A stretch of DNA of 35,259 bases, taken from a virus. The DNA lies in IMG/VR virus record IMGVR_UViG_3300048997_000487, positions 1 through 35,259 of that record. One strand, given 5' to 3'. The notes under the pieces were generated by a model. It saw only the letters and a list, made by a program, of their open reading frames with translations, had not been told where the DNA came from and did not search any database. The translations under genes were made by a program, and so were the position numbers. Positions 4,495-13,186 of the stretch are shown one piece after another (position 1 is the first letter of the stretch; each line of letters begins with the position of its first letter).

Positions 4495-4634
4495 GCGCGC
4501 TCACTGACTCGAACCGGCGGCCGCCGCGCCGACCCGTCCGGGGAGAGCTCCCCGCGCACCGGGTTCCCTCGCCGCCCGACGGGCTGCCGGAACTGCGCCA
4601 CGCCGCCGGCCGCAGACCTGGGGGTGCCCGGTGA
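4491..4634 (+). CDS. Hypothetical 47-aa Arg/Pro-rich ORF
   Basis: A GTG-started frame of 47 aa in the chain of 4-base overlaps. The product is rich in Arg and Pro (SNRRPPRRPVRGEL), a composition that also arises in non-coding frames of GC-rich DNA. The overlaps on both sides are the main support, and it may be only a translational bridge between neighbours. Confidence 0.4.
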   Translation: MSALTDSNRRPPRRPVRGELPAHRVPSPPDGLPELRHAAGRRPGGAR

Positions 4635-5008
4635 ACCCAGTCGCCGCGCTGGCCCTCGTCCTCGGCGTCGCCTGCCTCGTCGCCTGCCTCGTCATCGTGT
4701 TCGCCTGGACCAACAGCACGCCCGTCGACCGGCGCCCCACCGCGCAACTCCGCGCCACCGACGCCGCCCTCGGCCCGCCACCACCCAGTGGCGACGACCT
4801 GTGGACCGGCATGACCGTGATCGTCCCGAACAACGACCTGTGGCAGGCGTTCACCGCCCCGACGCAACGCCCCGGCGAGGACGACCAGTGGTCCTCCTTC
4901 ACCGACACCGTCCCGAACATCCGGCGCCTGGCCGCCGCCGAACAAGCCACCCAACCCGTCGAGGACATCCCCGTCCCCGACAACCCTGAAGGGACAGCAC
5001 ACCCGTGA
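4631..5008 (+). CDS. Single-pass membrane protein with extracytoplasmic Pro/Trp-rich tail
   Basis: Protein of 125 aa. Residues 4-26 (VAALALVLGVACLVACLVIV) form an N-terminal signal-anchor. The rest is hydrophilic with two similar segments, DDLWTGMTVIVPNNDLW and DDQWSSFTDTVPNI, which look like an internal duplication of a D-D-x-W-x(5-9)-VPN pattern. GTG start overlaps the previous stop. Function unknown; topology suggests the repeats are outside the cytoplasm or along the membrane face. Confidence 0.65.
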   Translation: MNPVAALALVLGVACLVACLVIVFAWTNSTPVDRRPTAQLRATDAALGPPPPSGDDLWTGMTVIVPNNDLWQAFTAPTQRPGEDDQWSSFTDTVPNIRRLAAAEQATQPVEDIPVPDNPEGTAHP

Positions 5009-11011: not shown

Positions 11012-11332
11012 ATGGACGCCCAGGACGACGAGCTGACCACCGCGCTGATCCCGGTCGCCGACCGGCTGGTCAGCGCGGTGCACGCATTGGACGCTGCAGC
11101 CGTCGCGCAGGCCTTCGCCGTCGCCGGCCAACTCGCCGGTGGTGAGCTGGCCGGCGCGCGGCACCTGGTGGTCGTCCTCGCCGCCATGTGCATCGAGGAC
11201 CAGCAAGCCGACGACGTCCTCGCCTGGACCCACAACCCCGACCAGTACGCCGACATGCGCGACAACGGCGTGCCGGCGCTACTGGCCTGCCTGCGCTCAG
11301 CCAGCGCGGTCCGCTACGGCGGTGCCGCGTGA
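11012..11332 (+). CDS. Hypothetical 106-aa helical protein
   Basis: ATG two bases after the preceding stop. Ala-rich helices (LIPVADRLVSAVHALDAAAV, HLVVVLAAMCIEDQQADDVL) followed by WTHNPDQYADMRDNGVPALL. Soluble and acidic. It is the last gene of the early run before the candidate origin. No family recognised. Confidence 0.65.
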   Translation: MDAQDDELTTALIPVADRLVSAVHALDAAAVAQAFAVAGQLAGGELAGARHLVVVLAAMCIEDQQADDVLAWTHNPDQYADMRDNGVPALLACLRSASAVRYGGAA

Positions 11333-11449
11333 AACAACAGCGTGAAACCACATATCCACAATTCCCAGGTCACGGCGATTTGGCGCCACATGACATTGTG
11401 TGCTCAACGCCGGGCGTACGGCCCCATGAGACAGAAGGGACCGAAGCAG
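11327..11449 (+). other. Left part of candidate replication origin: direct repeats and DnaA-like box
   Basis: The sequence GCGTGAAAC occurs twice (11327-11335 and 11340-11348), 13 bases apart. A DnaA-like box ATATCCACA follows at 11352-11360. GTCACGGCG (11369-11377) resembles the repeat family on the other side of the next gene. An imperfect inverted repeat CACA...TGTG lies near 11387-11402. The stretch is less GC-rich than its surroundings. Confidence 0.45.
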
Positions 11450-11779
11450 GTGACATTCTTCCCGCTCCCCGACGAGTTCTACGCCGACCCTCAGTTCATC
11501 CCCGCGTCCGACGCCTCAATCGTCCTCTGGGCACGAGCCGCGTCGTGGTCCGCACACCATCTCACCGATGGTTCTGTGCCGTCCTCGATCCTGCCCCTGC
11601 TCCATCGGGACGCCGACACGGCGGCGGCCGAGCTGGTGCAACTCACTGTCTGGAAACGAACCCGCGGCGGCTTCCAATTCGTCGTCTGGCCGAAGTTCGC
11701 CAGCCGTGCCTACGTGGAAGCAAAACGGGAGGGCAGTCGTGCCCGTCAACAGAGAAAGCGCAGCTCAGAGTCTGTTTAG
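11450..11779 (+). CDS. Short replication-initiation-type HTH protein
   Basis: Start chosen at GTG 11450 because the product then begins MTFFPLPDEFYADPQF, the typical opening of actinophage replication/primosomal proteins. ATG 11428 is the alternative, nearer upstream in the same frame. The 109-aa product continues ASIVLWARAASWSAHHLTDG (winged-helix-like), LLHRDADTAAAELVQLTVW, GGFQFVVWPKF, and a basic tail. Relatives usually carry a longer C-terminal part; here the chain ends with RARQQRKRSSESV, so this is a minimal or truncated form. It is flanked on both sides by DnaA boxes and repeats, which suggests it helps open the origin. Confidence 0.65.
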   Translation: MTFFPLPDEFYADPQFIPASDASIVLWARAASWSAHHLTDGSVPSSILPLLHRDADTAAAELVQLTVWKRTRGGFQFVVWPKFASRAYVEAKREGSRARQQRKRSSESV

Positions 11780-11821
11780 TCACGCCGTTAGTCACGCGTG
11801 ACAAACGCCGTGACTCACGCC

Positions 11822-11841
11822 GTGACTCACGCGTGAGTCAC
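11822..11841. repeat. Perfect 20-bp palindrome
   Basis: GTGACTCACG followed by its exact reverse complement CGTGAGTCAC. It shares its core (CACGCGTG) with the 12-bp palindrome at 11791-11802, and its left half belongs to the 12-bp tandem repeat. A likely binding site for a dimeric protein, perhaps the adjacent HTH protein or the later ParB-like protein. Confidence 0.8.
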
Positions 11842-12031
11842 ACCGCCCATACCAAGCCATACCAACTAGTACTTGGGGCACGCTGCCCCTTGCCCCCTGC
11901 GACCAACGACGCTGGCGCGCCGTTGAACGAACCAACGAACCGCACCTTTGTGCACAACGCGATTTACAACTCAAGCCCGAAAGGTGACCACAGCACGCGT
12001 GCGCGCGGATTGAATTGCGCGCGTCGCCGAG

Positions 12032-12063
12032 CTATCCACACCGTTGTCCACAATTTGCCCACA
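12032..12063 (+). promoter_or_regulatory. Cluster of three helically phased DnaA boxes
   Basis: CTATCCACA, TTGTCCACA and TTGCCCACA lie at 12032, 12044 and 12055. The middle box equals the actinomycete consensus and the outer two differ at one or two bases. All three have the same orientation and phasing of about one DNA turn. Confidence 0.65.
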
Positions 12064-12074
12064 GGGCGGCCGAC

Positions 12075-12350
12075 GTGAACCGCCGCAAGCCGCGCAGCGG
12101 CGGCCAGGGCCTGTTCTCGTGGGCACCCGCGTCCGGCGAAGTCGCCATCGGCGAAGTCCTCGCCAACCCGCTCACCGTCGCGTGCCGCTGGCCCACCTGC
12201 CGGGCACCCGTCGGCGACCGCTGCCGGCGCCTAGGCCTACGCGGCCGCCGCCACACCTGCCCGCCCCACCCCTGCCGGCACGACGACGCCACAGCACTCG
12301 CCACCGCCGCCCAGCACGCCCAGGAACCACGAACGGAGACACAACCATGA
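12075..12350 (+). CDS. Phage zinc-finger protein
   Basis: GTG start at 12075, immediately after the DnaA boxes, giving 91 aa. The frame is open further upstream but would translate the DnaA boxes, so this start is preferred. Residues about 30-65 carry the pattern of a small phage zinc-finger domain: VACRWPTCRAPVGDRCRRLG, then GRRHTCPPHPCRHDD, matching the usual Cys-x4-Cys-x-APVG-x-x-Cys and His/Cys arrangement. These proteins are common in actinophages and are thought to bind DNA. Its stop is overlapped by the ParB-like gene. Confidence 0.7.
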   Translation: MNRRKPRSGGQGLFSWAPASGEVAIGEVLANPLTVACRWPTCRAPVGDRCRRLGLRGRRHTCPPHPCRHDDATALATAAQHAQEPRTETQP

Positions 12351-13186
12351 TCGACCCGCCACCAGCAGACAGCGGCTCACGCAACGACGCTCAGCCCCCG
12401 GATGTCTCCCTGGTCGACGTCACGCCGGACCTCGCGCAGGTTTGGCTCGATCACAACACGCGGAATCGGTACATCCGGCAATCGACTGTCGAGGCGTACG
12501 CCCGCGACATGGCGGCTGGCCGCTGGCGGATCACCGGTGAGGCGTTTAAGTTCGCCGCCGACGGCACGCTCCTTGACGGCCAGCATCGCGCCAAGGCAAT
12601 CGTGCTGTCGGGCATCACGATCAAGACGTTCGTCATCTTCAACGTCGAGATCGAAGCCCAGGACGTCATGGACTCAGGGATCAAGCGCAGCGCTGGCGAC
12701 GCCCTCCACCTTGAGGGAATGAAGAACTCCAGCCGGCTTGCCTCAGCCGCACGGATCGCGCTGTGTCGCCAGGCCGGCCTGGCCGTCGGGACCATGAAGC
12801 ACTCCAACGCCGAGATCCACACCTTCGTCCGGGAGAACCCGGACCTCGTCGAAGCCATCGAACTATTGGGGCAACTCGGGCGAAGCTGCCCCATCCCGCC
12901 CAGTGTCGCCGATTACTGCTACTGGATCTTCAGTCGGATCGACCTCAACGACGCCCAGCGATTCTTCGAAGGTCTCGCAAGTGGCGCCAACCTCGCGACC
13001 GACAACGCGATCCTCGTCGTACGACGGCGTCTCACGGGCGAATACGGATCGGTCCGCCGAATCACCCAGGAAGAGCGACTCTCCCTCGTCATCCGAGCCT
13101 GGAACTACTGGCGCAAGAACCAGCCCATCAACCGCATCCTCGCACAAAGCCGCAGCGGCAAGATCGAGATCCCGGAGCCGATCTAA
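12347..13186 (+). CDS. ParB/sulfiredoxin-like domain protein
   Basis: Protein of 279 aa starting in an ATGA overlap. Residues 22-95 show the ParB/sulfiredoxin N-terminal pattern: VDVTPDLAQVWLDHNTRNRY, VEAYARDMAAGRWRITGEAF and LLDGQHRAKAIVLSGI, where DGQHR is the conserved nucleotide-binding/nuclease motif. The rest is helical (SSRLASAARIALCRQAG, IPPSVADYCYWIFSRIDL) without an obvious ParB HTH. Codon use is visibly less GC-biased than in its neighbours, suggesting separate acquisition. Roles could be partition, DNA modification or nicking; location just after the candidate origin favours a replication or maintenance role, but that is inference. Confidence 0.7.
   Translation: MIDPPPADSGSRNDAQPPDVSLVDVTPDLAQVWLDHNTRNRYIRQSTVEAYARDMAAGRWRITGEAFKFAADGTLLDGQHRAKAIVLSGITIKTFVIFNVEIEAQDVMDSGIKRSAGDALHLEGMKNSSRLASAARIALCRQAGLAVGTMKHSNAEIHTFVRENPDLVEAIELLGQLGRSCPIPPSVADYCYWIFSRIDLNDAQRFFEGLASGANLATDNAILVVRRRLTGEYGSVRRITQEERLSLVIRAWNYWRKNQPINRILAQSRSGKIEIPEPI

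Follow-up and report, generated by a model that had tools for sequence, protein, structure and literature searches.

The O protein of phage lambda is an initiator with its binding repeats inside its own gene. One account places ori-lambda inside the O gene (PMC6022878). In SPP1, the direct repeats of oriL are bound by the gp38 protein; oriL is located within gene 38, next to an AT-rich unwinding element (PMC6316719). In pSK41, the N-terminal winged helix of Rep (about 120 aa) binds boxes central in rep; the linker encoded by the ori is dispensable and the C-terminal domain is variable (PMC5703833). Replication origins of actinobacteriophages are poorly mapped, and the literature searched describes only those of a few extrachromosomal mycobacteriophages (such as Miko and Jeeves), with a RepA of 320-350 aa of the pMSC262 plasmid kind, where the authors found no repeats (PMC7157519).

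The window analyzed here is a whole viral record of 35,259 bases (IMG/VR IMGVR_UViG_3300048997_000487), with a GC content of 69% and all genes on one strand. A tyrosine integrase is encoded at its left end (1-1248), a RecE-like exonuclease is encoded as well, and the terminase, portal, capsid and tape-measure genes are found to the right. Judged from its relatives, this is a temperate tailed phage of an actinobacterium. No close relative of the whole phage was found by megablast of the phage collection or with the gene at 12350-13183 as query, and the 109-aa protein described next, used as query, gave one distant match only. Rfam and tRNA scans were empty, as was a scan for consensus sigma-70 promoters and intrinsic terminators. 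In our reading, the stretch from 11776 to about 12065 would be a theta origin, used after induction or infection and served by a 109-aa initiator, with a probability of roughly 0.85.

The 109-aa protein matches PHROG 2447 (E 1.2e-23; profile positions 3-113 of 295, with 107 of its 109 residues) and PHROG 3926 (E 1.8e-15), both labelled "replication initiation protein" and with members of about 295-312 aa. The window protein stops at residue 109, so that it has neither the full length nor the C-terminal region of the family. By tblastn, 342 actinophage records encode a relative, and the hosts in the tally are all actinobacterial. In the AlphaFold2 model (mean pLDDT 93), a confident winged helix is joined to a long basic helix at the C terminus. 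The top viral fold match is gp45 of Propionibacterium phage Anatole (121 aa), followed by replisome organizers. Structural re-ranking is led by the N-terminal domains of RepA from staphylococcal multiresistance plasmids (4pql, 4pt7, 5kbj, 4pta), with Z of 6.8-7.3, values not above background and level with unrelated winged helices; the modelled resemblance to RepA is suggestive only. A sequence search of solved structures gave no match for the window protein and the fold searches nothing decisive. There is no Pfam match either, the RepA_N domain not being recognised by sequence, and the best Pfam match among 42 family members is DUF7302 (E 5.7e-4).

Initiators of 109-130 aa are encoded at 9 of the 136 non-redundant loci with the stop codon in view (window included), which bears out the claim of a minimal initiator made in an earlier note on this DNA. 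Because the truncated length is common to eight other short members, the 109-aa form is best read as a recurrent short variant, neither unique nor an artefact. Read-through or a frameshift into the open +2 frame (11188-12078) was considered and rejected. Between 11780 and 12078, GC3 is 0.59-0.66 in every frame, unlike the genes on either side; because it is flat across this stretch, the open frame is no gene, and by this measure 11780-12074 is non-coding. The features of the locus are given in Table 1.

Table 1. Features in and around the candidate origin (positions in the window)
Feature	Position	Strand	Basis or remark
Initiator gene leader, containing tandem GCGTGAAACMACA and a ATATCCACA box at 11352	11327..11449		Repeat and box lists
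GCGTGAAACMACA, two tandem copies upstream of the initiator gene	11327, 11340		Direct reading
Short replication initiator, 109 aa	11450..11779	+	GTG start, TAG stop; winged helix-turn-helix and basic C-terminal helix; lacks the C-terminal half found in the family
AACGAACC, three copies	11655, 11926, 11934		Direct reading
Iteron array: GTGACTCACGC direct and inverted, 12-bp and 20-bp palindromes	11776..11841		Presumed initiator binding sites
TTAGTCACGC, two copies	11776, 11788		Direct reading
12-bp perfect palindrome GTCACGCGTGAC	11791-11802		Direct reading
GTGACTCACGC, three copies	11810, 11822 direct; 11831 inverted		Direct reading
20-bp perfect palindrome GTGACTCACGCGTGAGTCAC	11822-11841		Direct reading; the window has a second 20-bp palindrome, at 428
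Degenerate C-rich array CCATACCAAG CCATACCAAC, period 10 (two pentamers)	11847..11866	+	At the position of the (CCCGA)n-type array of the family
CCATACCAA, two copies	11847, 11857		Direct reading
Hairpin GGGGCA-CGC-TGCCCC, directly behind the array	11875..11889		DNA fold of 11840-11905, -7.1 kcal/mol
AT-richer stretch containing AACGAACC repeats, TTGTGCACAA and an inverted repeat with GCGCGC arms	11926..12023		Composition and repeats
Three DnaA-like boxes: CTATCCACA (12032), TTGTCCACA (12044, exact), TTGCCCACA (12055)	12032..12063	+	Spaced 12 and 11 bp
Cys-rich zinc-finger-like protein, 91 aa	12075..12350	+	Starts right behind the DnaA-box cluster; cysteine pattern, GC3 0.85

The repeats, palindromes and DnaA-like boxes listed in the earlier note are all present on direct reading, with the restriction that only one of the boxes, the middle one of the cluster, is exact. 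When the record is cut into 1,172 overlapping windows of 120 nt, the three with the highest content of short-range direct repeats start at 11731-11791. Two more such spots, at 1-180 and 4591-4770, are weaker than the origin stretch, and the second perfect 20-bp palindrome (428-447) falls within the integrase gene. The iterons at 11776-11841 are typical and resemble closely those of another short-initiator phage (L183) and of M. abscessus prophages; over 87 nt, the stretch is 76% identical to DNA within the initiator gene of these prophages. The array is a weaker version with runs of two C (CCATACCAAGCCATACCAAC), with a lag-10 run of 9 that is found elsewhere in 1 of 95 tiles. The hairpin GGGGCACGCTGCCCC has a loop unlike the TNAC or TAAA loops of the family, to the hairpins of which it would be equivalent. 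Further on, GCGCGC arms flank GATTGAATT (near 12000-12023) and the 60-nt windows at 11930-11960 show a mild drop in GC (0.52-0.57); 11926-12023 is a candidate unwinding element. The leader at 11327-11449 probably controls the initiator gene.

The 91-aa protein encoded behind the boxes matches PHROG 8924 (E 5.7e-9), of unknown function, and is possibly a separate partner of the initiator. In three other short-initiator loci (L183, L223, L052), a small gene whose product begins like "M.RTEVERLAAA...LRPDW..RSL.TFL", also a possible partner, lies right behind the non-coding origin, at the place of the Cys-rich gene of the window. In L046, the initiator carries a fused Cys-rich domain CGQC...CPxCHP, which L016 encodes in a gene of its own behind the origin, an arrangement that looks as if the gene had been split at the origin.

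The comparison covers about 140 relatives, most of the loci being metagenomic, with subsets of 77 (found with a relative's protein alone), 82 non-redundant and 136-138 loci. In the 77, dense iterons, a C-rich array and an AT-rich step lie 280-650 nt past the initiator start, often together with a hairpin. In the meta-profile of the 82 non-redundant loci, aligned on the initiator start, direct repeats at +280..+520 reach at most 83% of loci, against about 20% elsewhere, and GC dips from 0.68 to 0.62. A C-rich pentamer or hexamer array occurs in 65 of the 77 loci (84%) and in 20 of 514 control windows (4%); on the sense strand its unit is in most cases CCCGA or CCCGT, and in some CCAAC or the hexamer CCCGTA. 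The motif of C3 runs is strand-specific: per bin, it reaches 46% of loci on the sense strand but about 1% on the other. Four or more C3 runs with a spacing of 2-3 nt form a G-quadruplex motif on the opposite strand. Right behind the array, the AT content of the relatives is 0.51 (about 0.32 otherwise), and a hairpin with a stem of at least 9 directly follows it in 26% of 62 loci (0.3% in controls). The arms of these hairpins vary between phages with the pairing kept, and the loops TAAC, TAAA, TGAC and TTAC recur.

Searches starting from the DNA lead to the same gene. The exact double iteron GTGACTCACGCNGTGACTCACGC occurs in 7 of 2.9 million viral contigs and in 1 of 11.3 million genome contigs, and an initiator relative is encoded at all eight loci (shown by tblastn or profile for seven and, for L020, by reading a gene cut by the contig edge). 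An exact scan for (CCCGA)4 yields at least 119 loci; among the matches listed, 77 of the 117 testable have an initiator upstream on the same strand, at 350-700 nt in the loci measured, and those with no initiator are mostly on low-GC contigs. In six lower-GC contigs with no initiator (L122, L131, L149, L155, L177, L182), (CCCGA)n arrays recur at intervals of about 1 kb, with two or more per contig, a different use of the repeat. The layout is not universal, because the relative in phage VWB has no C-rich array. With most relatives carrying iterons and a C-rich array at the same position relative to the initiator, the origin claim of the earlier note is well supported; the GC skew, offered there as a check, shows no turning point at the origin stretch. 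A plasmid origin was rejected as well (just three plasmid records match, 0 typed mobilizable).

In most relatives, the origin repeats sit inside the initiator ORF and encode linker peptides (VTHAVTHA, PDPTRPDPTRP). They could thus be low-complexity coding linkers with no function as DNA, decayed in the window. Against this, the array has a period of 5, no codon multiple, and window-type iterons are read in at least two frames, even inside one protein. At the nine non-redundant short-initiator loci (window included), the stop codon precedes the array, and iterons and arrays persist as non-coding DNA; in the window, perfect palindromes are kept in a stretch that is non-coding by GC3. The coding-linker explanation is largely refuted already, and we regard it as highly improbable. 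Because the repeats persist outside coding sequence and are read in different frames, selection is judged to act on the DNA rather than on the peptide. The "mucin-2" annotation of an initiator relative in Streptomyces phage Darolandstone (NC_048072.1, 30667-30816) perhaps arose because the origin repeats translate into proline-rich sequence.

Regulators are common among winged-helix proteins, some of the iteron sequence is palindromic and a repeat is present also in the leader of the initiator gene, all of which would fit operators through which the 109-aa protein or a repressor controls transcription, with the origin elsewhere. In most loci, however, the iterons lie inside or behind the gene and not at a promoter, and they are followed by array, AT-rich step and hairpin. 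The family is moreover classed as replication initiation protein, and in some phages genes for replication proteins adjoin: in Dropshot, a helicase loader and a DnaB-like helicase are directly downstream of the initiator relative. Operators with a distant origin are thus an unlikely explanation. Some features of the window count against a functional locus. The short ORF, the degenerate array with its two-C runs and the hairpin with no family loop could mark a broken remnant, the initiator having been truncated by mutation and the phage no longer replicating from here. Yet the eight other short-initiator loci carry perfect arrays, Anatole gp45 comes from an isolated, plaque-forming phage, and the iterons and palindromes of the window are intact; we hold decay of this kind to be quite unlikely.

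The iterons of the relatives were sorted by eye into five classes, covering 69 of 138 loci, before the automatic test. Similarity of the winged helix shows no association with iteron class (1-nearest-neighbour 0.39, within the shuffled range), whereas similarity in the 20-40 residues past the winged helix predicts the class, with a value of 0.70 against a shuffled maximum of 0.39. The segment ERQRxSRER occurs with GTGACTCAC, RERMRxLRA with TTCGGGCGAA, AGRxGGxxSG with AAGCAAA and GNHxRWH with ATCGCCCC; these motif pairs were drawn up after the groups had been seen, and the conclusion rests on the automatic nearest-neighbour test. The initiators of L037, L058, L098, L099 and L101 contain an inserted GNHxRWHxxxGxxxPxCxxC, like an HNH or zinc-finger fragment, that accompanies ATCGCCCC-type iterons. 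The window protein ends just past the basic segment (SRARQQRKRSSESV). From the co-variation, it would keep all that is needed for sequence-specific binding and lack the variable C-terminal part only.

Taking as DnaA-like any box within 1 mismatch of TTRTCCACA, the window has further boxes at 11352 and 11948/11949 (one palindrome) besides the three of the cluster, which is about 140 bp beyond the hairpin. A chain of three such boxes appears in 0 of 1,000 simulated 35-kb sequences and in 0 of 20,000 simulated 744-bp regions. Among relatives, exact boxes occur in 4 of 137 bins at +400..+700 and in 6 of 1,737 control bins (Fisher p 0.004). The proposal that the origin depends on DnaA is therefore only weakly supported: a cluster like this is not expected by chance, but few of the relatives' origins (about 3%) contain an exact box, so that the expected conservation of the boxes fails and they are rejected as a feature of the family. 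Host DnaA could still be the main initiator, with the 109-aa protein dispensable, as the one-turn spacing of the three boxes and the slight excess at relatives' origins would allow. About 97% of the relatives keep iterons and array with no exact box there, and the iteron type tracks the basic segment of the initiator, which makes a leading part for DnaA improbable. Because exact boxes are rare at relatives' origins, DnaA is plausible as an accessory but does not define the system; the cluster probably brings it in locally.

For the origin served by the 109-aa protein, we infer the following steps. The initiator would bind the GTGACTCACGC iterons that directly follow its gene, through the winged helix and the basic segment SRARQQRKRSSE, and the binding would open the adjoining C-rich and AT-richer DNA. 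Melting may be helped by a G-quadruplex or by a protein on the C-rich single strand, and the hairpin may be a site of priming or of helicase loading. Because none of the window ORFs scanned (a subset) was recognised as a phage helicase, the helicase loader, DnaB, primase and polymerase recruited would be those of the host. Where most relatives would carry the origin within the initiator gene as a linker, in the window a stop codon precedes it and the DNA is left non-coding; the C-terminal domain may have been lost or replaced by another protein.

Evenly balanced, in our estimate, is the broader proposal of an undescribed modular origin cassette of actinophages: a winged helix, an exchangeable basic segment, matching iterons, a C-rich array whose opposite strand can fold into a G-quadruplex, and a hairpin with a TNAC or TAAA loop as a possible site of priming or helicase loading. 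Such a cassette would normally be hidden in the initiator gene and, in the window, be freed from coding by the stop codon. We found no description of the array, hairpin and iterons of the PHROG 2447/3926 family in the full-text literature searched, which covers few subscription journals and is a weak sign of novelty. The comparison predicts where the origin lies in hundreds of sequenced phages and may explain odd annotations, the proline-rich "mucin-2" products and VTHAVTHA linkers being translated origin DNA. It suggests a testable specificity code between a short basic protein segment and the iteron sequence. Phages with short initiators, which separate the origin from coding sequence, are well suited to a clean test, and small vectors for actinobacteria could be derived from them.

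The closest likeness is within the PHROG 2447/3926 family itself (Anatole gp45, Microbacterium phage Dropshot gp42), with which the window protein has the N-terminal domain in common over its whole length. Like the window protein, Anatole gp45 is short, and its stop codon is followed by iterons and a (CCCGTA)n array. Most members differ in having the C-terminal half and the origin inside the gene, and the window in having two-C pentamers and an extra DnaA-box cluster. Compared by arrangement, not by sequence, SPP1 gp38/oriL also has initiator repeats linked to the initiator's own gene and an AT-rich element, but SPP1 brings its own helicase loader and helicase, and oriL is inside gene 38 (PMC6316719). 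In pSK41 and other RepA_N replicons, the iterons differ and no C-rich array is described (PMC5703833). Lambda O and ori-lambda similarly combine an initiator, iterons in or beside its gene and a melting region, with the differences of four 19-bp iterons, a need for lambda P and no C-rich array (PMC3985674). The RepA of Miko and Jeeves is likewise an actinophage initiator with its origin in or beside its gene; it serves prophage maintenance, whereas the window phage has an integrase (PMC7157519). An extrachromosomal RepA-type origin, with parABS in place of an integrase, was rejected, the window having a tyrosine integrase and a protein of another family. The earlier view that this is not a standard phage O/P system finds no support in that form, an initiator with repeats in or beside its own gene being established in SPP1 gp38/oriL, in RepA_N plasmids and in lambda O. 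The comparison with the relatives supports an origin of the initiator-gene-linked type in the window, like SPP1 oriL or the pSK41 ori.
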